The notes beneath the pieces were generated by a model that saw only the letters and a list, made by a program, of their open reading frames with translations, ran no database searches and was not told the DNA's origin. A program made the translations under genes and the position numbers. Below, one piece after another: positions 9,621 through 22,273 of a stretch of DNA of 64,000 nucleotides (position 1 is its first letter; every line of letters begins with the position of its first letter). The stretch comes from Pontibaca salina (lineage in GTDB: Bacteria; Pseudomonadota; Alphaproteobacteria; Rhodobacterales; Rhodobacteraceae): the NCBI RefSeq assembly GCF_016307205.1, contig NZ_JAEIJD010000006.1, positions 124,001 to 188,000 on the forward strand, read 5' to 3'.

Positions 9621-9935
9621 TACTGGATCTCCCATGCTTGCTATCCTTTTCGAATTCAATCCACCCGCGGAAGCAGACAGGAGTAGCCGGAGATCGCCGC
9701 GAGCACTGCAATCTGGCACATCAATATCTGGAACCACTGTTCGCGTCAGGTTCTGTGCGGGCTTCCAAAGCCGAGGAAAGGCTCTTAACCGACCTCGGAT
9801 GCGGCGCAGCGTTTCATGACTTGATATGGTGCAGTGTCAGCGTCGGTTTGACAGTGTGGGAGGGCAGGGTGGATTGGAGAAGCTGTCATGCGAACAGCAT
9901 ACTTACCCGCCATTCGCGCACTTCGCCCCGCTTGA
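9621..9935. other. Unassigned sequence before integrase remnant
   Basis: One frame (9638-10009) is open for 123 codons but has no family features I recognise. A HEAT-like or capsid-like reading is not supported. It probably belongs to the decayed insertion. Confidence 0.3.
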
Positions 9936-10107
9936 AGCAAAGGGCGCATCGTCGGTCAGAAGCGACCGCTGAAGCCCAAACATGTCTGGGCGATCCGCGT
10001 AAGGCTTGAGCTGGCTGAGAGCCATCGAGAGCTTTCCCTGTTCAACATGGCCATCTACTCTAAACTTGTCCGTCATCATATAAAATGGGATTTCAGAGCG
10101 GCTTAAA
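9936..10107 (+). pseudogene. Tyrosine recombinase (integrase) N-terminal fragment
   Basis: The frame reads GRIVGQKRPLKPKHVWAIRV, then LELAESHRELSLFNMAIYSK, which matches the start of a common proteobacterial integrase type (KHVWAIRxxLQ...RDLALFNLAIDSKLRGCD). Similarity breaks after SKL at about 10077, where IS3-type sequence begins. No Arg/His/Tyr catalytic residues remain. Confidence 0.55.
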
Positions 10108-10325: not shown

Positions 10326-10958
10326 CCGGCCCCGGATCGTCGGGGGGCATGTCCTTCGCCTTCGGCTGGAAGCTTTATATCGACGCCCAAGCTTTGATCA
10401 ATGTGCCATCAACCGAAAATTGCTCATCCCTCATTCGGGACATTGCTGCGCAATACCCTGCCGGGCAATAGATAAAAGTGGTGCCACCTCGCGGAGCGCC
10501 AGGATCGCCCCCTTTCGGCAGATTACTCCGAAATCGCTTGCGATCCCGGTTCTTGGAGAACACGGTTGCGACCCAAACGTTCGTCGGGAAAACAACGCCC
10601 CACGCTGTTTTCTTTTCCTCCTCACCGTCGATGCCAAGACCGACGAACCAGCGAAACATCGGGTTGTATTGCATCTGGTCCATCAACTGGCACTCGGTCG
10701 AGCGGAAAACAGGATCTGGATCAGGCTGGCCCGGATCGGGCGCTCGGGGGCAATCGAAGGGCGGTCGAAATTAGCATAGAGCGGAGCGAACTCGCCGACG
10801 AGGCCGGCAAGAGCGTCGTTGACCAGTTGTCGGAACTTGCGCAGCGGATGTCTGGCGAGAATGCGCTCCTCAAGATCGACGTAGCTGAACAGCAAACCGC
10901 TCGTTTCATCTGTCCCGCGCGTCTTGCCCCCACCACGCTCCCGACGCGGAGGAGTCAT
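10326..10958 (-). pseudogene. IS5-family transposase remnant, frameshifted
   Basis: Two minus-strand frames together give an IS5-type transposase N-terminal half. From 10958 comes LFSYVDLEERILARHPLRKF, GEFAPLYANFDRPSI and PIRASLIQ. From about 10686 in another frame comes YNPMFRWFVGLGID, TVFSKNRDR, then DEQFSVDGTLIKAWASI. Extra sequence (about 10450-10540) interrupts it, and a stop precedes SFQPKAKD. It is inactive. Confidence 0.75.
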
Positions 10959-11427
10959 GTTCTCAAATCGAGTTCCAGAAGAGACAATTTCAGCACCTTT
11001 TTAAAGCTCCGAGTGAGAGTTTCCAGGATTTCAGCTGCTGTATATTTTAGAGAAAACTGTCGCCATTCACGCCTCTATCCACATGACATTTTTTTAAGAC
11101 TTAGCGCACGACTGTTCTCGCCGACCGGCGTGAATTTGGTAAGATATCGTAAAGGGTGCCTAATTGTCCTGGCAGAGACAGGATCGCATCCGTCTGACAG
11201 CACCCCGAATTAACTAAATAGCGGTCTTACCACATTTCAGACTGCCATAATTAGACGGCTTGCCGAATCGCTTGGTTGGGGGGTAACGTTTATGTGACAG
11301 CCATGGGTTCAATGAAGAAGCCGCCGTCGTTTTACTGAAATACAGGCCGCTAAACGGCGGTGTGGCAACGATGCCTCTGCGATGCGTGACGCATCGGCAG
11401 GGGCCTTGCGTGTTCTGGGGATGGGTC
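10959..11427. other. Upstream and leader region of the amide operon
   Basis: No gene is recognised in the 469 bp before the AmiC-like gene. The left part is AT-richer than its surroundings (about 11030-11160) and may contain the promoter. The right part holds a GC-rich hairpin listed separately. Leader RNA is of interest because the operon encodes an ANTAR antiterminator. Confidence 0.4.
11374..11403 (+). promoter_or_regulatory. Leader hairpin upstream of the AmiC-like gene
   Basis: A 13-bp stem (CCTCTGCGATGCG against CGCATCGGCAGGGG with one bulged G) closes a TGA loop, 25 bp before the chosen start. ANTAR proteins such as AmiR act on paired leader hairpins, so this could be part of such a target. 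There is no U-run after it, and I could not find a convincing second hairpin with the usual six-base loop. Confidence 0.35.
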
Positions 11428-12582
11428 ATGGCAAGACTGGAACTTACGGCTGGAGTGCTGCTGTCGCGCAGTGGATCCTATGACGCGGTAAGCAACGCCA
11501 TGTATGCTGGCACCGTTCTGGCCATCGACGAAATCAACCAAGATCCGGGGGCTGGGGTTTTTATAAAACCGGTGGCGGTCGATCCTGGGGGGCAGTTGGC
11601 GGGGTATGTCGACGGCGCGCGCACTTTGTTGCAGGATCACCGTCTGGAACATGTTGTCGGCTGCTATACCTCGTCCAGTCGAAAAGAGGTGCTGCCCCTG
11701 TTCGAGAAGGCCGATGCGCTGCTATGGTATCCGTCGCATTACGAGGGGTTCGAAACCTCGGAAAACATCGTTTACAGCGGCGCGGCACCGAACCAGCACA
11801 TCGTTCCGCTGACGGGCTATCTCCTATCGCATTTCGGTTTGCGCGGCTGGCTGGCGGGGTCCAACTATGTCTGGGCGTGGGAAAACAATCGGATCCTGCG
11901 TGAGGCCTTGTGCGCTTCCGGTGGCAGCATTCTGGGCGAGCGGTATTTTGCCATGGGCGATACGGATCTTGAGGATCTGGTGCATCAGATCGTCGCGGAT
12001 CGGCCGGATTACGTTTTCACCACGCTGATCGGCAGGTCCGGCATTACATTTTTGAAAATGTTGCGCGCCGCCTGTGACGCTGCGGGCATTGATCAGGCGC
12101 GTGAAATGCCCACCGCCAGTTGCAGCCTGTCGGAAACCGAATTGCCGCTGATTGGGGCATCGGCGGCGGGGCATCTGTCATCCTCGGTTTATTTCTCAAC
12201 CATCGACACACCCGAAAATGATCGGTTCAGGCGTCGCTGGGCGGCGCGGTTTGGACATTTGGGGCATGCGTCAGCGGATGCAGAAACGGCCTATGTAGCC
12301 GTGCATCTTCTGGCGCGAGCCGCTGCCCGTGCGGGCAGCGTGCGTTTCGAGGCCGTACGCGACGCCGCGCGAGGCCTTCAGTATGACGCGCCGCAGGGAA
12401 AGATCACGGTTGACCCTGAAAACCTGCATTGCTGGATGTGCCCACGGATTGGCAGATCGCGCGCTGATGGCACCTTTGATATCGTGATGGACAGCCCCGT
12501 GGCGATCCGCCCAGATCCCTATTTGACATGGGTGAGCGATATGGGCGGAGCACGCGGGCCGGACCTGCGCGTGATTCGATGA
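11428..12582 (+). CDS. amiC: AmiC-like amide sensor, periplasmic-binding-protein fold
   Basis: A 384-aa protein with the type I periplasmic-binding fold of AmiC and the urea/amide-binding family (LTAGVLLSRSGSYDAVSNAM, then VVGCYTSSSRKEVLPLFEKA and WYPSHYEGFETSENIVYSGA). It has no signal peptide, so it should act in the cytoplasm. In Pseudomonas AmiC binds short amides and releases the antiterminator AmiR. The next gene, overlapping by ATGA, encodes an AmiR-like protein, which supports the same pairing. The start at 11428 follows GGGG at 11417-11420 and gives the family N terminus. An upstream ATG at 11362 would put a GC-rich hairpin inside the coding region. Confidence 0.85.
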   Translation: MARLELTAGVLLSRSGSYDAVSNAMYAGTVLAIDEINQDPGAGVFIKPVAVDPGGQLAGYVDGARTLLQDHRLEHVVGCYTSSSRKEVLPLFEKADALLWYPSHYEGFETSENIVYSGAAPNQHIVPLTGYLLSHFGLRGWLAGSNYVWAWENNRILREALCASGGSILGERYFAMGDTDLEDLVHQIVADRPDYVFTTLIGRSGITFLKMLRAACDAAGIDQAREMPTASCSLSETELPLIGASAAGHLSSSVYFSTIDTPENDRFRRRWAARFGHLGHASADAETAYVAVHLLARAAARAGSVRFEAVRDAARGLQYDAPQGKITVDPENLHCWMCPRIGRSRADGTFDIVMDSPVAIRPDPYLTWVSDMGGARGPDLRVIR

Positions 12583-13235
12583 GCCGGACAATCATCAAGA
12601 ATTTTCGCGGCTTGCGGGCTTTGCTGCTAATGCACACCAGCACGGGCCGCGACACGCTGGAACGCACGTTGGGCAAGCTGGGCCTGATCGTGACCGTGAC
12701 CGGTGACCTCCCCGATTGCAGGGACATTGCCGCGCGTTTCGATCTGGTATTTTTCGATGCCGACGATGGTGCGCATAGTGCATTGTGCAATGCGCAGCTG
12801 CCGAATGTCCCCATGATCGCCCTAGTCGGCAGCGAAGCGCCCAGCCACCTTGCCCGTGTCGTCCGGTTCCGCGCCGCCAGCCATATCCCTAAGCCGGTGC
12901 GCAGTTCCGGCGTGTTCACCGCTATCCTGCTAGCGGTCAACGAGCATGCGGCGCGAATGGCGCAGGAAAAGGAAATGCAATCCATGCGTCGCCGCCTTGC
13001 CGGACGGCGCTGTGTCATTGAGGCCGTGCTGGCCCTGATGAAATCGCGCAACGTCGACGAACACACCGCCTATGGTTGGCTGCGTCACGAGGCGATGCGC
13101 CTGCGGATCCCGCTAGAGACCATGGCCCGCCAAGTTCTAGGCAAGGTTGTCCGCAGCGACCGAGGTTCATCACAAAAGACCGAGCAAATCGGCGCATTGA
13201 ACGACACCGACGATCAACCAACAGAGGAGAAATGA
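12579..13235 (+). CDS. amiR: AmiR-like response regulator with ANTAR domain
   Basis: A 218-aa RNA-binding antiterminator. Residues about 15-125 form a degenerate receiver domain (LRALLLMHTSTGRDTLERTL, FDLVFFDADDG) without a clear phospho-acceptor setting, as in AmiR, which is controlled by AmiC binding instead. A helical linker leads to the ANTAR domain at about 140-195 (RRRLAGRRCVIEAVLALM, then DEHTAYGWLRHEAMRLRIPL), with the usual Ala and aromatic positions. The start overlaps the amiC stop. By analogy it would let RNA polymerase pass terminators in the leader when amides are present. Confidence 0.88.
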   Translation: MSRTIIKNFRGLRALLLMHTSTGRDTLERTLGKLGLIVTVTGDLPDCRDIAARFDLVFFDADDGAHSALCNAQLPNVPMIALVGSEAPSHLARVVRFRAASHIPKPVRSSGVFTAILLAVNEHAARMAQEKEMQSMRRRLAGRRCVIEAVLALMKSRNVDEHTAYGWLRHEAMRLRIPLETMARQVLGKVVRSDRGSSQKTEQIGALNDTDDQPTEEK

Positions 13236-13236
13236 A

Positions 13237-14484
13237 GTGACCGACAGACATAGTAGTTTATTCGCCAAAGGTTTAATGGCCGGTGCTGCGATGGCGCTTG
13301 CCCTCGCATGTCCTGCCTTTGCCCAGGACGGCCCGATCAAGATCGGCGTTTTGGAGGATCAATCGGGCGATTTTGCCGCCGCAACCATGGTCAAGGTCCA
13401 TGCCATCCAGCTTGCAGCCAAGGAAATCAACGATGCGGGCGGCATCGATGGGCGCCCCGTCGAGCTGGTGGTTTACGATACGCAATCCGACAACCGTCGT
13501 TTTCAGGAATTCATGCGCCGGGTGTTGCAATCCGACAAGGTGGATGCCGTCTTTGCCGGCTTCTCGTCCGCCTCGCGCGAGGCGTATCGACCCATCGTCA
13601 ATCAGTTCGACGGGCTGGCGTTTTACAACAACCAGTATGAAGGCGGGGTGTGCGACAGCAACATGATCGTCACCGGCGCGGTGCCCGAACAGCAGTTTTC
13701 GACCCTTATCCCGTGGATGATGGAAGAATACGGGCCGAACGTTTATACCATCGCAGCGGACTACAACTTTGGTCAGATTTCAGCCGAATGGGTGCGTCAG
13801 ATCGTCGAGGAAAACGGCGGCAATATGGTCGGTGAAGAGTTCATCCCGCTAGGGGTGTCGCAGTTTGGCCAGACCATCCAGAACATTCAGGCCGCCGATG
13901 CTGATTTCGTAGTAACCCTGATCGTGGGCGCGGCGCAGGCGTCCTATTACGAACAGGCGGCGGCGGCCAATGTGGGCCTGCCGATGGCATCGTCCGTCAA
14001 CGTTGGACAGGGGTATGAGCACAAGCGGTTCAACCCGCCCAGTCTGGCCAACATGTATGTCACCACCAACTATATCGAGGAAATCGACACGCCTGCCTCC
14101 AAGGCGTTCGTCGAAAAGTTCCACGGGATGTTCCCCGATGAAACCTACATCAACCAAGAGGCGGCAAACTCCTATATCGCCATGTATCTCTACAAGCAGA
14201 TGGTGGAACGCGCAGGCAGCACAGATCACGATGCGATCCGGGCCGTGATCGCTGAGGGCGACGTGTGCTTTGAGGGGCCGTCAGGCAACACCTGTCTGGA
14301 TCCACAAAGCCAGCACATGTCGCACACGATTTATCTGGCCAAAGTAGGCGATGATCATTCGATCACGTTCCCCAAGGTCTGGGAGGATATCAAACCCTAC
14401 TGGCTGGGCGAAGCGGGTTGCGACCTGACCAAGAGCGACCCAAGCGCGCAATATACGCCATCGTCGCCTCCACCGGCGCAATAA
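13237..14484 (+). CDS. Urea/short-chain amide ABC transporter substrate-binding protein
   Basis: A 415-aa secreted binding protein of the UrtA/FmdD group. Its signal peptide runs to about residue 29 (GLMAGAAMALALACPAFA, then QDG). The mature start IKIGVLEDQSGDFA is typical, followed by INDAGGIDGRPVELVVYDTQ, and FYNNQYEGGVCDSNMIVTGA as in amide/urea binders. The start is GTG at 13237, since the nearby ATG at 13232 gives only two codons. GAGGAG at 13224-13229 is well spaced. It follows amiR by one base and shares its fold with the AmiC-like sensor. The formamidase at the operon end suggests formamide, acetamide or urea as ligand. Confidence 0.88.
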   Translation: MTDRHSSLFAKGLMAGAAMALALACPAFAQDGPIKIGVLEDQSGDFAAATMVKVHAIQLAAKEINDAGGIDGRPVELVVYDTQSDNRRFQEFMRRVLQSDKVDAVFAGFSSASREAYRPIVNQFDGLAFYNNQYEGGVCDSNMIVTGAVPEQQFSTLIPWMMEEYGPNVYTIAADYNFGQISAEWVRQIVEENGGNMVGEEFIPLGVSQFGQTIQNIQAADADFVVTLIVGAAQASYYEQAAAANVGLPMASSVNVGQGYEHKRFNPPSLANMYVTTNYIEEIDTPASKAFVEKFHGMFPDETYINQEAANSYIAMYLYKQMVERAGSTDHDAIRAVIAEGDVCFEGPSGNTCLDPQSQHMSHTIYLAKVGDDHSITFPKVWEDIKPYWLGEAGCDLTKSDPSAQYTPSSPPPAQ

Positions 14485-14503
14485 CCGCCTAAGCGACAGA
14501 CCG

Positions 14504-14530
14504 CCGGGCGGCTGACCCCGCCCGGTATTT
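14504..14530 (+). terminator. Intercistronic hairpin after the binding-protein gene
   Basis: A perfect 8-bp stem CCGGGCGG/CCGCCCGG (14504-14511 and 14518-14525) with a six-base loop is followed by TATTTT. It lies between the binding-protein and permease genes. Such elements often protect the upstream mRNA or partly end transcription, making binding protein more abundant than membrane parts. Confidence 0.6.
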
Positions 14531-14557
14531 TCCCTTGACGATCTGGGAGTATTATTG

Positions 14558-15430
14558 ATGGCCCTGTTTCAGAGCCTATTTGGCATGTTGTATCAATTCG
14601 GTGATACCTTCGCGTTTCTGGTGATCGCCTGCGCCGGGCTGGCCGTAATTTTTGGCATGATGGGCGTCATCAATCTGGCGCATGGCGAATTCATCATGTG
14701 CGGCGCTTATGTCACCGCCAGCTTGGCGCGCGTGGGTGTGCCGTTGCCGATGGCGGTACTGGCAGGCGCGCTGGCCGCTGGATTCGTCGGCGTGATCGTC
14801 GAGCGGTTGGTGATCCGGCATTTGTATCACCGCCCATTGGATTCGATTATCGCGACATGGGGCATCAGCCTGATTGCGACGCAGGGTGTGCTGATCTTTC
14901 TGGGATCGACGATGCAGGGCGTCGGCACGCCGTTGGGCAGTGTCGATATCGGCGGGCGGTTTTATTCGATCTATCGTTTCGTGCTGATGGGCGCGGCTGT
15001 TGGTCTTCTTGGTGGGCTTTACCTGCTGTTCTATCATACTCGCTTTGGCGTGATTGCGCGGGCGACCATTCAGAAGCCGCAGATGGCCCATGCGTTGGGT
15101 GTGAACACCGGACGCATGTATGGTCTGACATTCGGGTTGGGCGCGGCGTTGGCCGGGCTTGCCGGGGGGCTATATGCGCCGACGATGACGATGGTGCCGA
15201 CGATGGGCGCGACCTTTATCGTTGAAAGCTTCGTAACCGTTGTTGTTGGTGGCGCAGACATCTTTGTGGGGGCCGCTCCCGCCGTCGCGATCCTAGCGTT
15301 TATCAAGACCGGGCTGACGGCCTGGTATGGTCAATTGTTCGGGCAGATCGGCCTGCTGGTGACCGTCATTCTGGTGATCCGGGTTCTGCCCGGTGGCCTG
15401 TCGGGTTGGCTGAAGGGGACCACACGATGA
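14558..15430 (+). CDS. Branched-chain/urea-type ABC transporter permease (UrtB-like)
   Basis: A 290-aa inner-membrane permease of the LivH/UrtB type with about eight hydrophobic segments. Visible features are GLAVIFGMMGVINLAHGEFI near residue 30, the LivH signature, then RTRFGVIARATIQKPQMAHA-type cytoplasmic EAA loop (here YHTRFGVIARAT, MAHALGVNTGRMYGL) contacting the ATPases. The ATG at 14558 is preceded by GGGAG (14545-14549). A TTG three bases earlier is less likely. Its stop overlaps the start of the next permease. Confidence 0.9.
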   Translation: MALFQSLFGMLYQFGDTFAFLVIACAGLAVIFGMMGVINLAHGEFIMCGAYVTASLARVGVPLPMAVLAGALAAGFVGVIVERLVIRHLYHRPLDSIIATWGISLIATQGVLIFLGSTMQGVGTPLGSVDIGGRFYSIYRFVLMGAAVGLLGGLYLLFYHTRFGVIARATIQKPQMAHALGVNTGRMYGLTFGLGAALAGLAGGLYAPTMTMVPTMGATFIVESFVTVVVGGADIFVGAAPAVAILAFIKTGLTAWYGQLFGQIGLLVTVILVIRVLPGGLSGWLKGTTR

Positions 15431-16512
15431 CCGAGACCTCCAACGGCACAGGTTCATCCCAGCCGCGCCTCGCATTTCTCAGGCGCCTTGAGGGTCCGCA
15501 GACCATGGGGCGCGGCCCGTTGTTTTGGGGGGCGGCCGCCGTCGCCGTAATGATTGCGGTCGTCTATCCGCTCATGGCGGATGCGTGGACCGTAGGGAAT
15601 ACAGCCTATTTTATGATCTGGACCTTCATGGCCATGGGGCTGGGCTTGGTATGGGGGTACGCAGGCGCGCTTAGCTTCGGGCAGACCGCGTTTTTCGGAT
15701 TGGCGGGATATACCTATGGTGTATTGACGCTGAATTTCGGAGCCGCCTACGGGCTGACCATAGTTGCATTGCTACTGTCGGTCGCCTTGGGCGCACTGTT
15801 CGCCGTAGTGATCGGTTATTTTATGTTCTACGGGCGCATTCAGGGCGTGTTCATCGGCATTGTCACCCTGTCGGTCACACTGGTTATGGAAACCTTCATG
15901 TCCCAGACCGCCGGTCCGCAATGGCGCATTGGCGAGGCCCGTTTGAACGGGTTCAATGGCATGTCCGGCATATCGCCTTTGACCGTGCCGTGGCCAGGGG
16001 GCGATCTGGTGCTTTTTCCGGGGCCGATACTGTATTATGTACTGCTGGGCCTGCTGGTGCTGTGCTATCTTGGCCTGCGGATCCTGCTGAATTCACCGTT
16101 TGGGAATGTGTTGGTCGCAATCCGCGAGAACCCGCACCGGGTGGGGATGCTGGGCTATGATGTGCGTCTCTATCAGATGCTCGCGTTTGCCATCGGCGGC
16201 GGTTTTGCCGCCCTATCCGGCGCGCTTTATACTGCCTGGGGCCAGTATATCACACCGTCCAGCATGGGCCTAACCGCGGCTGCGCTGCCGATTGTGTGGG
16301 TGGCTGTAGGGGGAAGGCGCGATATCACAGCGACGCTGATCGGCACTCTGGCCGTGCTTTACGGTTTTCAGGCGCTGACCATCTATGGCAGTCAATATGC
16401 CCTCGTCGTCATGGGCGCACTATTGCTGTTCACGGTGCTGGTTGCGCCGCAGGGATTGGTTGTTGCGGGCATGAACCTTGTTGCGCGCCTGTTTCGGAGG
16501 GCGCAGCGATGA
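15427..16512 (+). CDS. Branched-chain/urea-type ABC transporter permease (UrtC-like)
   Basis: Second permease, 361 aa, LivM/UrtC type. A polar N-terminal stretch of about 30 residues precedes the membrane core. Family features are LGLVWGYAGALSFGQTAFFG (about 80-100), which is the LivM signature, and the cytoplasmic loop LNSPFGNVLVAIRENPHRVG, MLGYDVRLYQMLAFAIGG. The start ATG overlaps the preceding stop as ATGA, and its own stop overlaps the next gene the same way, indicating translational coupling through the operon. Confidence 0.9.
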   Translation: MTETSNGTGSSQPRLAFLRRLEGPQTMGRGPLFWGAAAVAVMIAVVYPLMADAWTVGNTAYFMIWTFMAMGLGLVWGYAGALSFGQTAFFGLAGYTYGVLTLNFGAAYGLTIVALLLSVALGALFAVVIGYFMFYGRIQGVFIGIVTLSVTLVMETFMSQTAGPQWRIGEARLNGFNGMSGISPLTVPWPGGDLVLFPGPILYYVLLGLLVLCYLGLRILLNSPFGNVLVAIRENPHRVGMLGYDVRLYQMLAFAIGGGFAALSGALYTAWGQYITPSSMGLTAAALPIVWVAVGGRRDITATLIGTLAVLYGFQALTIYGSQYALVVMGALLLFTVLVAPQGLVVAGMNLVARLFRRAQR

Positions 16513-17231
16513 CGAAATTGTTGCAGGTCAGCGGGCTGTGCAAGGCATTCGGCGGCGTAGTCGTGGCCGATAAGATCGACTTTTCGCTGTCGGCCGGGGC
16601 GATGCATTGTCTGATCGGCCCGAACGGCGCGGGTAAATCCAGTTTTTTCCGCTTACTTTTGGGGGAACACGCGCCTGATGCAGGCACGATAACCTTTGAT
16701 GGAGATGATATAACGCACCTGCGCTCGTTTCAGCGTATCCGGCGAGGGATCTCGGTCAAGTTTCAGGTGCCGGGCATTTTCAAAGCCCTGTCGGTGCGCC
16801 AGAATCTGGAGGTTGCGTTTCAAAGTCATCTGTCCGGTTCCCAGCTGGAACAGACGATCCACGAGATGCTGGAGTTTACTGAACTGTCGCATGTCGTCGC
16901 GACGCCCGCCGGAGTCCTCTCGCACGGGCAACAGCAATGGCTGGAAATTGCCATGGCGGTCGGGGTCGAACCTAAACTCTTGCTGCTGGACGAACCAACG
17001 GCAGGCATGTCGCCGGATGAAACGCGCAAGACGGGGGATATGCTGAATGAACTGAACAATCGCGGCATCACCATTCTGGCCGTCGAACACGACATGGCCT
17101 TTGTCGAGCAGATCTCGAAACGGGTGACGGTGCTGCATTTTGGGTCCATTTTCGCCGAAGGCACCATCGCCGAAATCGTCGATCACATGGGCGTGCAGGA
17201 AATCTATTTGGGGACGGTCGATGATGGATGA
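16509..17231 (+). CDS. ABC transporter ATP-binding protein (UrtD/LivG-like)
   Basis: ATPase of 240 aa that powers the importer from the cytoplasmic side. Walker A is GPNGAGKS (about 37-44) and Walker B is LLLLDEPTAG. The signature motif is LSHGQQQWLE, where Gly is replaced by His as in UrtD proteins, and the switch is AVEHDM. KFQVPGIFKALSVRQNLEVA is also UrtD-like. ATGA overlap with the upstream permease fixes the start at 16509. Confidence 0.92.
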   Translation: MTKLLQVSGLCKAFGGVVVADKIDFSLSAGAMHCLIGPNGAGKSSFFRLLLGEHAPDAGTITFDGDDITHLRSFQRIRRGISVKFQVPGIFKALSVRQNLEVAFQSHLSGSQLEQTIHEMLEFTELSHVVATPAGVLSHGQQQWLEIAMAVGVEPKLLLLDEPTAGMSPDETRKTGDMLNELNNRGITILAVEHDMAFVEQISKRVTVLHFGSIFAEGTIAEIVDHMGVQEIYLGTVDDG

Positions 17232-17934
17232 TCCGCTGCTTGAAATCTCGGAACTGGTTGGTGGCTACGGCGGTGAATCCGTGTTGCAAGGCGTGAATCT
17301 GACCATAAAACCGGGCGAAATCGTCGCCGTTGTGGGCCGCAATGGCGTGGGTAAAACTACCCTGATGCGCACGCTTACTGGCCTGTTGCGCCCCTCGGCC
17401 GGCACCATCCGGTTCGCCGGGCGAGACATCACCTCCGAGGGCGCGGATATGCGTGCCCGATCCGGAATCGGCTATATCCCACAGGGCCGCGAAGTGTTTC
17501 CCGAACTGACGATCCGCGAGAACCTGTTGGTGGGCGAGGGCGCCGGAAAAACACGGGGCGCGCCGGATTATGAGATGATCTATCGCTTTTTCCCCATCCT
17601 GAAAGAGCGCGCGCGCCAGCGCGCCGGCACCCTGTCCGGAGGGCAGCAGCAACAGCTGGCCATTGCTCGCGCGATGATCGGCAATCCGCGCCTGATGTTG
17701 CTGGATGAGCCGTCCGAGGGCATTCAACCATCAATCATCAAGGATATCGCGCGAAATGTGCGCACGCTGAACCGCGAAACCGGCGTTGCCGTGCTGCTCG
17801 TCGAGCAGAACCTAGAATTGATCGTGTCGCTGGCCGACCGGGGACACGCGATGGAAAAGGGCTGCATCGTGGCCGACATGGACGCGGATGAAATCCGCTC
17901 AGCTAGTGAGGTCCGCAAACATTTGACCATCTGA
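17221..17934 (+). CDS. ABC transporter ATP-binding protein (UrtE/LivF-like)
   Basis: Second ATPase, 237 aa. Walker A is GRNGVGKTT, the signature is LSGGQQQQLAIARAM, Walker B is LMLLDEPSEGIQP and the switch is LVEQNLE. GYIPQGREVFPELTIRENLL is typical of the LivF/UrtE branch. It overlaps the end of the first ATPase by 11 bases. Starts at 17221 and 17224 are both ATG. Together the five genes give one binding protein, two permeases and two ATPases, the complete importer type for branched amino acids, urea or amides. Confidence 0.92.
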   Translation: MMDDPLLEISELVGGYGGESVLQGVNLTIKPGEIVAVVGRNGVGKTTLMRTLTGLLRPSAGTIRFAGRDITSEGADMRARSGIGYIPQGREVFPELTIRENLLVGEGAGKTRGAPDYEMIYRFFPILKERARQRAGTLSGGQQQQLAIARAMIGNPRLMLLDEPSEGIQPSIIKDIARNVRTLNRETGVAVLLVEQNLELIVSLADRGHAMEKGCIVADMDADEIRSASEVRKHLTI

Positions 17935-17992
17935 TCGAACGCCTGTCCGGAAGATTGAATTATCCAAGATCACCAGAAAAGGAGCACGAAAA

Positions 17993-18979
17993 ATGACCTG
18001 GCTCAGCACTTCTATCATGGCCCGTAAGGGTGTCGCGAAAGGTGTCGAAGGGGCACATCACAAGATCACGATCGAGGATCAGGGCGAATTCCACTATGTC
18101 TATGGCCCCTACGCCAAACCGGTTCTAGAGGTCGATCCCGGCGCGGTCGTGACCGTGGAAACTCACGACGCATTCGAGGGCGCCATATCAGAAGTCGTGG
18201 ACAATCCATCATCGCTGTTGAATTTTCCGTTCCTCAATCCGCAGACCGGCCCAATCTATGTTAAGGGCGCTGAAAAAGGCGATGCGCTGGCGGTTAGGAT
18301 CATTTCAATCAAACCGCGCGGACCGCAACCTGTCGGAACCACCTGTCTCTTGACCGAGTTTGGGGGCCTCGTCGCCACCGGGGATACCGCGCTCTTGAAC
18401 GCGCCCCTGCCTGAACGGGTGAAAAAAATCAACGTGGACGAAGACGGCGTCTATTGGTCTGATACCCTGACTTTGCCCTATGAGCCGTTTATCGGCACAA
18501 TTGGAACCTCGCCGCAGATCGAGGCAATCTCGTCGCTTCAGCCCGACTATTACGGCGGCAACATGGACGTGCCGGATGTCGCGCCGGGATCGATTATCTA
18601 TCTGCCGGTGAATGCCGAAGGCGGGTTGCTCTATCTGGGCGATTGCCACGCCATTCAGGGTGACGGCGAACTGTGTGGCGTGGCGTTAGAAATGCCCGCG
18701 ACGGTAGAAATACACATCGACCTGATCAAGGGGCACGGCAATGGCTGGCCGCAATTGGAAACCGAAGAGCGGATGATGTTCATCGGCTCGGCTCGCCCGA
18801 TGGAAGACGCCGCCCGGATCGCGTATCGCGAATTGGTGCGCTGGGTCGCCGCCGAAACCGGCCAAACCGAAAGCGATGCATATATGCTGCTCACCATGTG
18901 CGGCAAGGTTCGGCTCGGAAACATGGTCGATCCAAAATACAGTTTGGGGGCCGCCATCGAAAAGCGTTTTCTCAAATAA
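17993..18979 (+). CDS. fmdA: Acetamidase/formamidase family amidohydrolase
   Basis: A 328-aa cytoplasmic enzyme of the FmdA/AmdA family, which splits formamide or acetamide into ammonia and the acid. Family blocks are VEVDPGAVVTVETHDAFEGA-like near residue 45, TGPIYVKGAEKGDALAVRI (about 82-100), then PYEPFIGTIGTSP, GGNMDVPDVAPGSIIYLPVN and LYLGDCHAIQGDGELCG. The length fits the shorter, acetamidase-like branch rather than the 400-residue formamidases. It is 58 bp after the second ATPase with GGAG at 17981-17984, so it is the last gene of the amide operon and the enzyme that would use what the importer brings in. Confidence 0.9.
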   Translation: MTWLSTSIMARKGVAKGVEGAHHKITIEDQGEFHYVYGPYAKPVLEVDPGAVVTVETHDAFEGAISEVVDNPSSLLNFPFLNPQTGPIYVKGAEKGDALAVRIISIKPRGPQPVGTTCLLTEFGGLVATGDTALLNAPLPERVKKINVDEDGVYWSDTLTLPYEPFIGTIGTSPQIEAISSLQPDYYGGNMDVPDVAPGSIIYLPVNAEGGLLYLGDCHAIQGDGELCGVALEMPATVEIHIDLIKGHGNGWPQLETEERMMFIGSARPMEDAARIAYRELVRWVAAETGQTESDAYMLLTMCGKVRLGNMVDPKYSLGAAIEKRFLK

Positions 18980-19611: not shown

Positions 19612-20001
19612 TCAGCGCGTCTGTTCGTCCGACCTGCAGAATAAATCATAGACGAGTTCCATGATTTGTCGTGGGCGATGGTCTCTTAGGGAGTAATAGA
19701 TCGTCTTGCCCTCCCGGCGAGGCTGGACCAGCCCCTCCAGACGTAGGCGAGCCAGTTGTTGCGAAACTGCGGCCTGCCGAGCAGAGAGAAGATCTTCAAG
19801 TTCGGTGACCGACTTTTCCCCGGTCGCGAGATGACACAGGATCATCAGTCGCCCCTCATGGCCGATTGCCTTTAGAAAATTCGCCGCCTTTGTGGCGTTA
19901 TGCATCATGCGCTCGAGCTCGTCGTTGCTCGTGTTCTCGTCAAAGACCGGCAGGCCAGAATCTGTCGCTGGTTCGGGTGTTTCCGGGTGTACGTTCATCA
20001 T
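19612..20001 (-). CDS. soxR: ArsR-family sulfur oxidation regulator SoxR
   Basis: A 129-aa winged-helix repressor. The core starts with KAANFLKAIGHEGRLMILCH and continues with the recognition helix SARQAAVSQQLARLRLEGLV and the wing RREGKTIYYSL. In Paracoccus-type clusters SoxR represses sox genes without reduced sulfur. The Cys in the first helix region (MILCHL) and one near the C terminus (DLFCRS) correspond to the pair used for sensing in related repressors, though I infer that only from position. Its start overlaps the soxS stop as ATGA. Confidence 0.9.
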   Translation of the reverse strand: MMNVHPETPEPATDSGLPVFDENTSNDELERMMHNATKAANFLKAIGHEGRLMILCHLATGEKSVTELEDLLSARQAAVSQQLARLRLEGLVQPRREGKTIYYSLRDHRPRQIMELVYDLFCRSDEQTR

Positions 20002-20426
20002 CCTGAGAGCTCCTGCGCCTGTGCTCGCTCCATCATTTTACTTAGCAACCCCCAGAAAAAATCTTCTCCTGGATACCCCTCTATCCGCCCGACCTCTCTG
20101 CCGTCCAGTAACAGTACAAAAGTCGGCGTGAAATGTAGCTTATTCGCGAAGCTTATACCTTTGGGTGCCGTGTCTTTTATATCCATCCGGCGCAGCGGCG
20201 CGGCTTGCCCTTCAGGCGTCTTGGGGTAGATCGGTGCGATTTCTTCGTCCCAGCGAGCGCACCAGATACAGCCCGCCTCTTCCACCATGATAAGCGCCAT
20301 CGCTCCGGCGGCCGCAGCATCCGGAGTTTCGGCGGAATCGGCTTGCAGAGGCTTAGACAGTAATATGAGCACCACTGTCAGAGCGGCTATCAGCGCAGTT
20401 ATGATGAGCTGTCCAGAGCGTAGCAT
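19998..20426 (-). CDS. soxS: Periplasmic thioredoxin-like protein SoxS
   Basis: A 142-aa thioredoxin-fold protein with an N-terminal membrane anchor or signal (about 8-28, LIITALIAALTVVLILLSK). The redox motif is CIWC in EEAGCIWCARWDEEI, and the cis-Pro region is FTPTFVLLLDG. In Paracoccus SoxS keeps the SoxY cysteine in a usable state and activates the Sox system. It is translationally coupled to soxR and divergent from soxV, with 76 bp between them. Confidence 0.9.
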   Translation of the reverse strand: MLRSGQLIITALIAALTVVLILLSKPLQADSAETPDAAAAGAMALIMVEEAGCIWCARWDEEIAPIYPKTPEGQAAPLRRMDIKDTAPKGISFANKLHFTPTFVLLLDGREVGRIEGYPGEDFFWGLLSKMMERAQAQELSG

Positions 20427-20451
20427 CGGATTAATTCAGTCTCTTGTTTGC

Positions 20452-20477
20452 GCAATATGTAATTTGAATATATGAAT
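20452..20477. promoter_or_regulatory. Candidate SoxR operator in the soxS-soxV divergent region
   Basis: Reverse-strand ATTCATATAT, 6 bp, TACATATTGC shares the ATTCAyATAT half and the CATATTG half with sites before soxB, soxG and the DsrE gene. It lies between two divergent starts, where a repressor would control both. Confidence 0.45.
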
Positions 20478-20502
20478 TTTGCAAGTCAAGATGGGGTTCC
20501 CG

Positions 20503-21243
20503 ATGTTCGATGTAACTTTTGCCGGCGCAGCCCTCGCAGGGCTGCTGTCCTTCCTCTCGCCCTGTATCCTGCCGATCGTGCCGTTCTATCTGAGTTATCT
20601 CGGAGGTGTAAGTATGAACCAAGTTTCGGCAGAGGCAAAGCTTAGCGGGGCGGTGCGTATCCGGGCAATGCTGTCGGCGATCGCGTTTGCGCTAGGCGTT
20701 ATCACCGTGTTTGTCGCGCTTGGTGCCACTGCCACTGCTTTCGGGCAGGTGGTGCGCGAATATTTCGATATCCTGCGCTGGGTGGCCGCGGCAATCATCA
20801 TCGCGATGGGATTGCATTTTCTGAACGTGATTCGCATCGGCTTCCTGTATCGCCAATTCCGGGCCGACGCCGGCGAGACCTCTAACATGAGCATGGTAGG
20901 GGCTTACGTGATTGGACTGGCCTTCGCGTTTGGCTGGACACCCTGTGTCGGGCCGGTGCTGGCCGCGATCCTGTTTACCGCCGCAGGACAGGAAACCACC
21001 ATGACCGGTGCGATGCTGCTCTTCGTTTATGGCCTTGGCATGACGCTGCCCTTCATAGTTGCGGCCGCATTCATCGGGCCGTTTATGCGCTGGATGACGC
21101 GGTTTCGCCGCCATCTTCCAAAAATTGAAAAGGCGATGGGTTTGTTGCTGGTCGCTTTTGGCGTTCTTATCGCAACCGATTCAATAGGTCTTATCGCGTT
21201 CTGGCTTTTGGAGACCTTTCCGATCTTCATGCGACTCGGCTGA
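20503..21243 (+). CDS. soxV: CcdA-family thiol-electron transporter SoxV
   Basis: A 246-aa inner-membrane protein with six predicted membrane segments. The conserved cysteines lie in SFLSPCILPIVPFYLSYLGG and AFAFGWTPCVGPVLAAILF, the two halves of the CcdA redox pair. SoxV passes electrons from cytoplasmic thioredoxin to a periplasmic partner (SoxW or SoxS) for SoxY reduction. The start at 20503 gives the usual MFDVTF terminus. ATG at 20491 is an alternative. SoxW, usually next, is missing here. Confidence 0.9.
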   Translation: MFDVTFAGAALAGLLSFLSPCILPIVPFYLSYLGGVSMNQVSAEAKLSGAVRIRAMLSAIAFALGVITVFVALGATATAFGQVVREYFDILRWVAAAIIIAMGLHFLNVIRIGFLYRQFRADAGETSNMSMVGAYVIGLAFAFGWTPCVGPVLAAILFTAAGQETTMTGAMLLFVYGLGMTLPFIVAAAFIGPFMRWMTRFRRHLPKIEKAMGLLLVAFGVLIATDSIGLIAFWLLETFPIFMRLG

Positions 21244-21775
21244 ATCCCGTGCTGTGTTGATGTGGGGCCAAGCTTGCCGTCGCCTGTAGGGACTTTTGGC
21301 TTTTGCCGCCGAGCGGGCGCATCAGGCTATACAAGGCGACATCGGGTCGGGCGAGGCGATTAGGGCCGATTGGCGTTCTTGAAACCGACTGAATCTGATA
21401 GCGAAACTCGTAGCGAGAAGTGGCGCGTCGGTTGGGGATTCTTTTCACCCTGAGATTTTCATGTCCGAGCAAGCGGGTAAGAATCGGCGGGCGGAAAACA
21501 GCGCCGTCGCGGAGGTGCCGGGCGTCATCGGCGCAGACACAACGCCCGGCAGATCACATATCGCGCCGAAAATGACCATTTTCCTAATAATATTAAGGGA
21601 TTTTGGTGTCATGATAGATTACAATAGGGCGCGCGACACCCGGCGGGATGGCCAGAGGCATAGACTAATTCGCAGACGTGAATTTGAGCTTGCTTTAAGT
21701 ATTCTTTGTGGCCTACGGTATACCGCAGCGATCGGAGGCACGTGGACAGCGATCGGTGGCACGTGGAAGAGAGGC
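21244..21775. other. Gap where soxW normally lies, with a 21-bp tandem duplication
   Basis: This 532-bp stretch between soxV and soxX has no thioredoxin gene and no recognisable soxW remnant on either strand. A frame from about 21461 is open into soxX but has no family features. Bases 21728-21748 and 21749-21769 are tandem copies of GCGATCGGWGGCACGTGGAMR, immediately before the soxX ribosome-binding site. Confidence 0.45.
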
Positions 21776-22273
21776 ATGAAAATGCGAGGGATTATGAGGC
21801 TAAGTATTGTTTCAGTGGTGAGCGTCTTGCTCGGCACGGGCATCGCCAGCGCCGAATCTGTCGACCCGACAGAGGTGCAATACGACGAGTACGGTGCCGT
21901 CGAGGCATCGCTTTCGGGCGTGCCCGGTGATCCAGCAAGCGGCGCCGAAATCATGAAGTCCAGAGCCAAGGGCAACTGCATCGCCTGTCACGAAGTAGAG
22001 GTACTTAAAGACGCGCCGTTTCACGGAGAAGTGGGGCCGGCGCTGAATGGTGTCGGGTCGCGTTGGAGCGAGGCTGAAATGCGCGGAATCGTGGCCAATG
22101 CGAAAATGACCTATGACGGCACGATGATGCCGGCTTTCTACAAGACCGAAGGCTTCATCCGGCCCGGCGACGGCTATACTGGCAAAGCCGGCAAAGAGCC
22201 TCTGCCGCCGATCCTGTCGGCGCAGGAAATCGAGGATGTTGTCGCGTTTCTGATGACGCTGAAAGAGGAATAG
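21776..22273 (+). CDS. soxX: Sulfur oxidation monoheme cytochrome c SoxX
   Basis: Small periplasmic subunit of SoxAX, which joins thiosulfate to the SoxY cysteine. The 165-aa protein has a signal peptide (MRLSIVSVVSVLLGTGIASA) and one heme site CIACH in GNCIACHEVEV. Distal Met is likely in YDGTMMPAFYKTEGF. The region VGPALNGVGSRWSEAEMRGI is SoxX-like. The start at 21776 has GAGAGG just before it. The longer open frame is not supported because it lacks a signal peptide at its start. Confidence 0.93.
   Translation: MKMRGIMRLSIVSVVSVLLGTGIASAESVDPTEVQYDEYGAVEASLSGVPGDPASGAEIMKSRAKGNCIACHEVEVLKDAPFHGEVGPALNGVGSRWSEAEMRGIVANAKMTYDGTMMPAFYKTEGFIRPGDGYTGKAGKEPLPPILSAQEIEDVVAFLMTLKEE

Follow-up and report, generated by a model that had tools for sequence, protein, structure and literature searches.

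A putative self-regulated amide-scavenging operon with a conserved two-hexaloop leader in Pontibaca salina and other alphaproteobacteria

Amide utilization clusters and ANTAR-controlled leaders have been described in several bacteria. In the amidase system of Pseudomonas aeruginosa, a terminator is preceded by hexaloops (PMC3369931). The two hexaloops of eut leaders are joined by a linker of 5-12 nt, and antitermination is impaired by a linker of 14 nt or by an additional 20 nt (PMC3369931, PMC8934654). The structure of EutV indicates that one dimer is unable to hold both loops of one RNA simultaneously (PMC8934654). Linkers of 2-25 nt were accepted in a survey of actinobacteria (PMC8164766). 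In Methylophilus methylotrophus, the fmdCABDEF cluster, induced by formamide and urea, combines genes for a porin and for a formamidase of approximately 45 kDa with three importer genes (review PMC10781810). A plasmid operon of Klebsiella sp. KOS9 contains amiC, amiR, an acetamidase gene and four ATP-binding cassette (ABC) genes; acetamidase activity was found in lysates of the strain, and the enzyme and importer were called AmiE and "cluster 5," respectively (PMC13209695). It has been suggested that amides are transported by the products of urtABCDE-like genes adjoining a PF03069/fmdA gene in B. japonicum (blr0968-0973; PMC3098086), and by a Urt-like importer whose genes adjoin an acetamidase/formamidase gene in P. 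veronii Yu15, where amiC and amiR were stated to be absent (PMC13209695). Here we describe an operon in a 64,000-nt stretch of a Pontibaca salina contig (NZ_JAEIJD010000006.1, positions 124,001 to 188,000; hereafter the window, to which all positions refer). Eight genes on one strand occupy positions 11428-18979 in the order amiC-amiR-urtA-urtB-urtC-urtD-urtE-fmdA, and amiC is preceded by a leader that is conserved in the family and was not mentioned in the initial annotation of this DNA. We consider that the locus is probably a conserved type of amide-scavenging operon that regulates itself through antitermination. The genes are as follows.

11428-12582, + strand: amiC-like cytoplasmic ligand sensor (profile and AmiC alignment)
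12579-13235, + strand: AmiR-type ANTAR antiterminator (profiles)
13237-14484, + strand: urtA-like substrate-binding protein (SBP; profiles, alignment to structure chains)
14503-14526, + strand: GC-rich hairpin between urtA and the permease genes (prediction)
14561-15430, + strand: urtB-like permease (profiles)
15427-16512, + strand: urtC-like permease (profiles)
16509-17231, + strand: urtD-like ATPase (profiles)
17224-17934 (alternative start 17221), + strand: urtE-like ATPase (profiles)
17993-18979, + strand: short acetamidase/formamidase-family amidase (profiles, 5ubu alignment)

The gene families named in the initial annotation were confirmed by the coordinates and by profile searches. The sensor matched PF13433 at 396.6 bits and AmiC at 2.5e-65. 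As had been claimed, it has no signal peptide on inspection, residue 8 aligning with residue 10 of AmiC. The adjoining gene encodes an ANTAR regulator, as annotated, with an AmiR_N domain (PF21332, 39.1 bits) and an ANTAR domain (PF03861, 46.7 bits), both above cut-off, and a match to AmiR at 7.3e-13; on inspection, the ANTAR stretch appeared well conserved among the AmiR proteins of loci with the same gene order. The importer consists of an SBP with a signal peptide (by inspection; aligned to 8tg1 at 4.8e-72), two PF02653 permeases and two PF00005 ATPases. The description of the junctions as mostly ATGA overlaps was overstated: such overlaps occur at three of seven (12579-12582, 15427-15430, 16509-16512), urtD and urtE overlap by 8 nt (11 nt with the urtE start at 17221), and at the remaining three the genes are separated by 1, 76, and 58 nt. 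A GC-rich hairpin directly 3' of urtA was predicted in 15 of 16 loci examined, the exception being L035 (gap of 21 nt). Hairpins of this kind keep SBP mRNA in excess.

The gene order was identical in 18 alphaproteobacterial loci including the window (type I loci), 17 complete and one (L035) interrupted by a contig end. The row is beyond what chance would give, because the order recurs in 17 further loci. These loci also show that the combination is not peculiar to the window, and the Klebsiella plasmid operon with amiC, amiR, an acetamidase gene and four ABC genes had already been published (PMC13209695). The other members are L034, L035, L036, L037, L038, L072, L073, L091-L095, L103, L104, L106, L138, and L139. 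Sources include Poseidonocella pacifica (L034 and L071, the same contig, counted once), a Pseudotabrizicola metagenome-assembled genome (L072), Acuticoccus kalidii (L073), and plasmids of Palleronia (L103), Paracoccus liaowanqingii (L104), and Methylobacterium currus (L106). All were collected via AmiR searches except L138 and L139, which came from a UrtA search. With the genome of the window included, the AmiR query matched in 49 of 198 family genomes at E 0.001, 9 of 394 family genomes at 1e-30, 2 of 292 order genomes at 1e-30, and 12 of 385 class genomes at 1e-12; of two other genomes of the genus, one had a match at 29% and the other none.

The UrtA query was used to test the linkage of amiC-amiR to the importer free of the bias of AmiR searches. 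It matched in 11 of 388 family genomes (E 1e-110), and amiC-amiR was directly upstream in all 11. In a class-wide draw, 4 of 308 genomes matched (E 1e-90): the genome of the window, G384, G265, and G280. In G384 the cluster is rearranged, with amiC-amiR divergent from an fmdA-urtABCDE unit; in G265 and G280 neither amiC nor amiR was present within the 16 kb fetched around UrtA. The initial annotation had regarded separation of the sensor and ANTAR genes from the transporter as evidence against its proposal. Linkage was intact in all 11 family genomes with this UrtA and differed in these three more distant genomes, one rearranged and two without the pair in the 16 kb fetched, so it is the property of one clade and not universal.

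The leader is built of a hexaloop hairpin (P1), a linker, a second hexaloop hairpin (P2), and a terminator overlapping P2. Its elements in the window are listed below, where A1 and G4 denote loop positions.

11260-11289, + strand: possible promoter, TTGCCG, 18 nt, TAACGT (by eye)
11305-11322, + strand: P1 hairpin, UUC-AAUGAA-GAA, core 11308-11319, hexaloop 11311-11316 with A1 and G4
11347-11360, + strand: middle hairpin, CCGC-UAAACG-GCGG, possible by sequence within the 44-nt linker
11364-11375, + strand: P2 hairpin, GGC-AACGAU-GCC, hexaloop 11367-11372 with A1 and G4, mutually exclusive with the terminator
11373-11404, + strand: terminator stem-loop, -23.3 kcal/mol, its 5' arm using the 3' arm of P2
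11405-11413, + strand: degraded U-tract CTTGCGTGT, 3 T in the first 8 (tract scoring)

A TTGCC-like stretch was also seen upstream of P1 in L034 and L072. The consensus scan listed neither the possible promoter nor the terminator of the window, and an Rfam search (E up to 5) gave one chance microRNA match and nothing else. Among 12 aligned leaders (mean identity 60%), C13, A14, and G20 of P1 and GGCA...GCC of P2 were invariant. Pairing in P1, its lower stem and P2 was observed in 85.5% of cells, compared with 30-56% in slid controls, and 7 of these 13 pairs had two-sided changes (2.5 in shuffles). The distance from P1 to P2 was 52-56 nt in 13 of 15 leaders (43 in L106, 88 in L094), and the linker measured 40-44 nt in 13 of 18 loci. 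At 44 nt, the linker of the window lies outside both the eut range and the range of the actinobacterial survey. A hairpin of at least 4 bp ending no more than 4 nt from P2 was possible by complementarity in 13 of 15 leaders (shuffled linkers: mean 1.7, maximum 6), while its sequence varied freely. Under the energy model this hairpin was in the minimum fold of 10 of the 15 (that of L095 sits 7 nt from P2), and P1 was complete in the whole-leader minimum fold of 11. Once the best hairpin lying within 10 nt of P2 was subtracted, 16 of 18 leaders retained 20-33 nt of unpaired linker. Longer linkers, with a second hairpin by eye, were seen in L094 and L036; L106 and L139 have no linker hairpin and linkers of just 31-33 nt, and L138 (32 nt) has a weak AU-rich hairpin. 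In L036 the hairpin TCCGGCTGCGCCGGA occurs twice within the 78-nt linker, as though by duplication of the linker hairpin. Of 16 leaders measured, 15 had no fewer than 5 T among the 8 positions after the terminator stem.

An automatic search under strict rules, which demanded both A1 and G4 in each loop and no fewer than 5 T in 7, overlooked the window as well as 7 of 15 other type I loci; these leaders were read by eye. In L072 the search selected a P1 different from ours, and it also matched one locus of a different layout (L098, L082). The model R1 pairs P1 and P2 only, as the linker hairpins were not brought into register by MAFFT; it reached little past its 12 training leaders (L094 24.9, L036 19.9, L106 14.9, and L095 14.2 bits). 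In the genome of the window, where 150 of 1374 candidates were scored, R1 recovered the leader of the window (80.6 bits), which belongs to the training set, and a single further site at E 0.996. An 18.1-bit site in L055 found separately was absent from this search, which therefore does not establish that there is only one target.

From the sequences, we infer the ligand, AmiR binding, read-through, and the substrate of the enzyme as follows. Without amide, AmiC would keep AmiR inactive and the leader would terminate transcription just before amiC, leaving little operon mRNA. Binding of a small amide to AmiC would release AmiR, which would attach to the emerging leader, first at the P1 hexaloop and afterwards at P2, and keep P2 out of the terminator. 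RNA polymerase would then read through amiC-amiR-urtABCDE-fmdA; the importer would take the amide in, and the FmdA-family enzyme would split it to ammonium and an acid. Such induction would be self-reinforcing, because amiC and amiR sit behind the terminator. In most members the hexaloops stand 40-44 nt apart, and the linker hairpin would fold part of the linker away. On this view, related bacteria share a compact unit for amide scavenging that carries its own RNA switch, and antitermination is the likely switch in the family.

A number of observations weigh against this reading of the leader. No variation occurs in the P2 pairs, additional pair types were no more frequent than in shuffles (146/500), and two slid controls scored higher in covariation. 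The terminator helix, as aligned, pairs in only 69.8% of cells, and whole-leader stability relative to shuffles was uneven (z -0.98 to -5.56 over 12 leaders, window -2.08). Only half of the leaders (9 of 18, the window among them) have A1 and G4 in both hexaloops. The linker hairpin was outside the minimum fold in the window, L092, L073, L094, and L106, and for RNA ending at P2, the minimum fold included P2 in 8 of 15 leaders, the window not being one of them. L138 and L139 keep A1 but have U or A at position 4, have no good linker hairpin, end in the U-tracts TTTCTTGC and TTCTCGTC, and gave no R1 match. In the window itself, the energy model favors P1 (core probability 0.98) alone among P1, the linker hairpin, and P2. 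The middle hairpin, equaled by 14.8% of shuffled linkers, has a probability of 0.01-0.05 because a longer linker hairpin (11323-11361) is favored; that of P2 is 0.06 in RNA ending at P2 and 0.00 in the whole leader, its 5' arm being paired with sequence preceding P1. The U-tract has 3 T of 8 and a score of 2.51, compared with 5-8 T and 3.79-5.81 in 15 other leaders, and is the weakest encountered, although that of L139 is weak as well.

Given the degraded U-tract and the disfavored P2, the switch of the window may have been lost or have become leaky. Its terminator is probably weak and its antiterminator fold disfavored, with basal expression probably above that of the relatives. In the extreme case the switch would be broken in this genome: the leader would not terminate, the operon would be constitutive or set by its promoter, and AmiC and AmiR would be relics or act elsewhere. 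The tract and the energy-model folds of P2 and the middle hairpin point in this direction, and those folds led us to raise our estimate of a broken switch and to lower that of a controlled operon. However, P1 and the terminator stem are intact, the latter as stable as the others; both hexaloops retain A1 and G4; the pocket letters of AmiC are those of the other 15 type I sensors; another member, L139, also carries a weak tract; and L073 has a good U-tract yet disfavors P2, so that the energy model alone cannot decide. We put a broken switch at slightly below an even chance. The initial view of one self-regulated unit with antitermination as its switch is therefore upheld for the AmiC/AmiR-headed unit and the conserved leader, and weakened for the window by its U-tract and the low probability of P2. 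It seems improbable, even after a slight upward revision prompted by the energy-model folds, that the leader works as a plain attenuator to which AmiR does not respond. In favor of this reading, AmiR-leader binding is so far deduced from sequence, and a lengthened linker impairs EutV antitermination. Against it, the letters of ANTAR-type loops are fixed or almost fixed at two sites that are spaced by 52-56 nt and precede an AmiR gene, and the overlap of P2 with the terminator is that of known ANTAR leaders. We tentatively suggest, at slightly below an even chance, a variant class of ANTAR antiterminator, in which hexaloops 52-56 nt apart are bridged by a linker hairpin of free sequence and fixed place and a clade of AmiR proteins reads the wide spacing. 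Our confidence in this class fell when the energy model placed the hairpin in the minimum fold of 10 leaders out of 15, where complementarity had allowed it in 13, and left it out in the window. If it exists, searches limited to linkers of up to 25 nt would miss such leaders. The type I loci also offer natural leaders for testing the permissible distance between two ANTAR hexaloops. The loops AAAUGU and AAAUGC of L138 and L139 have U at position 4, as does P1 of the short-linker leader of L058; perhaps this represents a second loop code for AmiR proteins.

The nature of the amide was approached through the binding pockets and the enzyme. UrtA passes the urea_ABC_arch cut-off (602 versus 494.8 bits) and its relatives are named "urea ABC transporter SBP" in plasmid records, which would fit an importer and sensor that handle urea; but UrtB, UrtC, UrtD, and UrtE are below every Urt cut-off, leaving one of five subunits above. 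In P. marinus UrtA, Trp120, Ser122, Gln144, Tyr190, and Asn246 are required for urea (PMC10392092). We mapped these and Tyr141, Glu146, and Ser274 via alignments to 7s6e and 8tg1 in a set that did not include L138 and L139. The SBP of the window retains Ser, Tyr, Gln, Glu, Tyr, and Ser of the urea pocket, but Trp is replaced by Phe and Asn by Val in 16 of 16 type I SBPs; the corresponding residues of all 16 type I sensors are Y for Trp, H for Gln, and I for Asn. Urease genes are found elsewhere in the genome, beside another urt cluster. Urea is thus a very improbable ligand, and the pocket argues that the urea-binder name is wrong for the SBPs of this clade. The five-part importer, annotated as urea/amide-type, is Urt-like in all five genes and urea-type by descent only. 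A small amide, with formamide as first candidate, is the ligand we favor. The amidase belongs to PF03069 (125.2 bits, cut-off 27) and is of the short type (5ubu, 1.5e-124). Its GGNxD and GDxHxxxGDGE stretches can be aligned with those of 5ubu, and with 2ii1 the alignment covers the first Asp-bearing part and the GDG part; the choice of motifs is ours. The annotation as FmdA-family thus stands at the level of PF03069, and formamidase as its function is a guess, the match to formamidase FmdA (NF045496) being 74.8 bits against a cut-off of 500. The short type and the distance from that cut-off would also suit a specialized amidase acting on a carboxamide other than formamide or acetamide, as would the gene for a short-chain dehydrogenase/reductase (SDR) oxidoreductase directly after fmdA on the Palleronia (L103), Paracoccus (L104), and Methylobacterium (L106) plasmids, and the type I sensor pocket YPSHYEG/NYVWA, which differs from YPTPYEG/DYIYP of a sensor elsewhere in this genome (type III, contig C10), itself close to the AmiC chain 1qnl (YPNPYEG, DYIYP). 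We regard such a substrate as unlikely, though worth keeping in view, since no SDR gene was seen right after fmdA in the window and the bulky W and H would point to a small ligand.

The genome of the window has three ANTAR genes. A second AmiC-AmiR system, on contig C10 (L055, 676-10180), comprises urtABCDE, an open reading frame (ORF) with a ClpB_D2-small domain, amiC, amiR, and a PF01425 amidase gene; dual-hexaloop leaders precede urtA and the amidase gene, with linkers of 11 and 10 nt. For this urtABCDE-amiC-amiR layout, dual hexaloops with linkers of 5-11 nt were found, partly by reading, in 4 of 12 loci scanned (L055, L058, L060, L064). A third amiC-amiR pair lies on contig C37 (1-20000, L113 (L056)), beyond a urt-urease cluster; at the positions of WxS and YxxQxE in urea UrtA, the C37 SBP reads YTT and FPTFYEG. 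On a Rhizobium leguminosarum plasmid (L110, about 9760-9948), a terminator-like stretch with GGC-UAUGUA-GCC separates amiR from a nitrilase-family gene. Just upstream of the operon in the window, two minus-strand ORFs (10375-10958) look by eye like a broken transposase of the insertion sequence IS5 type, with no Pfam match. Downstream (19612-22273) are genes for an ArsR-type regulator, a thioredoxin-like protein, a DsbD-like protein, and a cytochrome c, which we take to resemble part of a sox cluster.

The operon resembles the P. aeruginosa system in its sensor with a periplasmic-binding-protein fold and its ANTAR regulator with an AmiR_N domain. Here, in contrast to P. aeruginosa, the regulator genes come first, behind the terminator, and are joined to a Urt-like importer and a PF03069 amidase. 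The leader shares with the EutV leaders of Enterococcus faecalis two hexaloops, the second exclusive with the terminator; a linker hairpin of the present kind was not found described in the ANTAR-leader literature searched, insofar as those texts were available. With Methylophilus fmd the operon shares the joining of amide importer genes to a PF03069 gene, there for a formamidase; the portion of the review available to us (PMC10781810) mentions neither AmiC nor an ANTAR protein. The B. japonicum and P. veronii clusters differ in that both, as described, also hold amiE. The annotated plasmids L105, L107, L108 (Klebsiella variicola), and L109 (P. canadensis) carry amiC-amiR, two permease genes, an SBP gene, a gene annotated as acetamidase/formamidase, and an ATPase gene, and many more fetched loci, with low-identity labels, resemble them. 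We infer that the KOS9 operon has the layout of L108 and L109, in which R1 detected no type I leader; this layout differs from ours in having two permeases, an SBP, the acetamidase/formamidase-annotated gene and an ATPase and not urtABCDE. No operon of AmiC-AmiR, Urt, and FmdA was among the matches listed in the literature searched, most subscription journals being outside its coverage.

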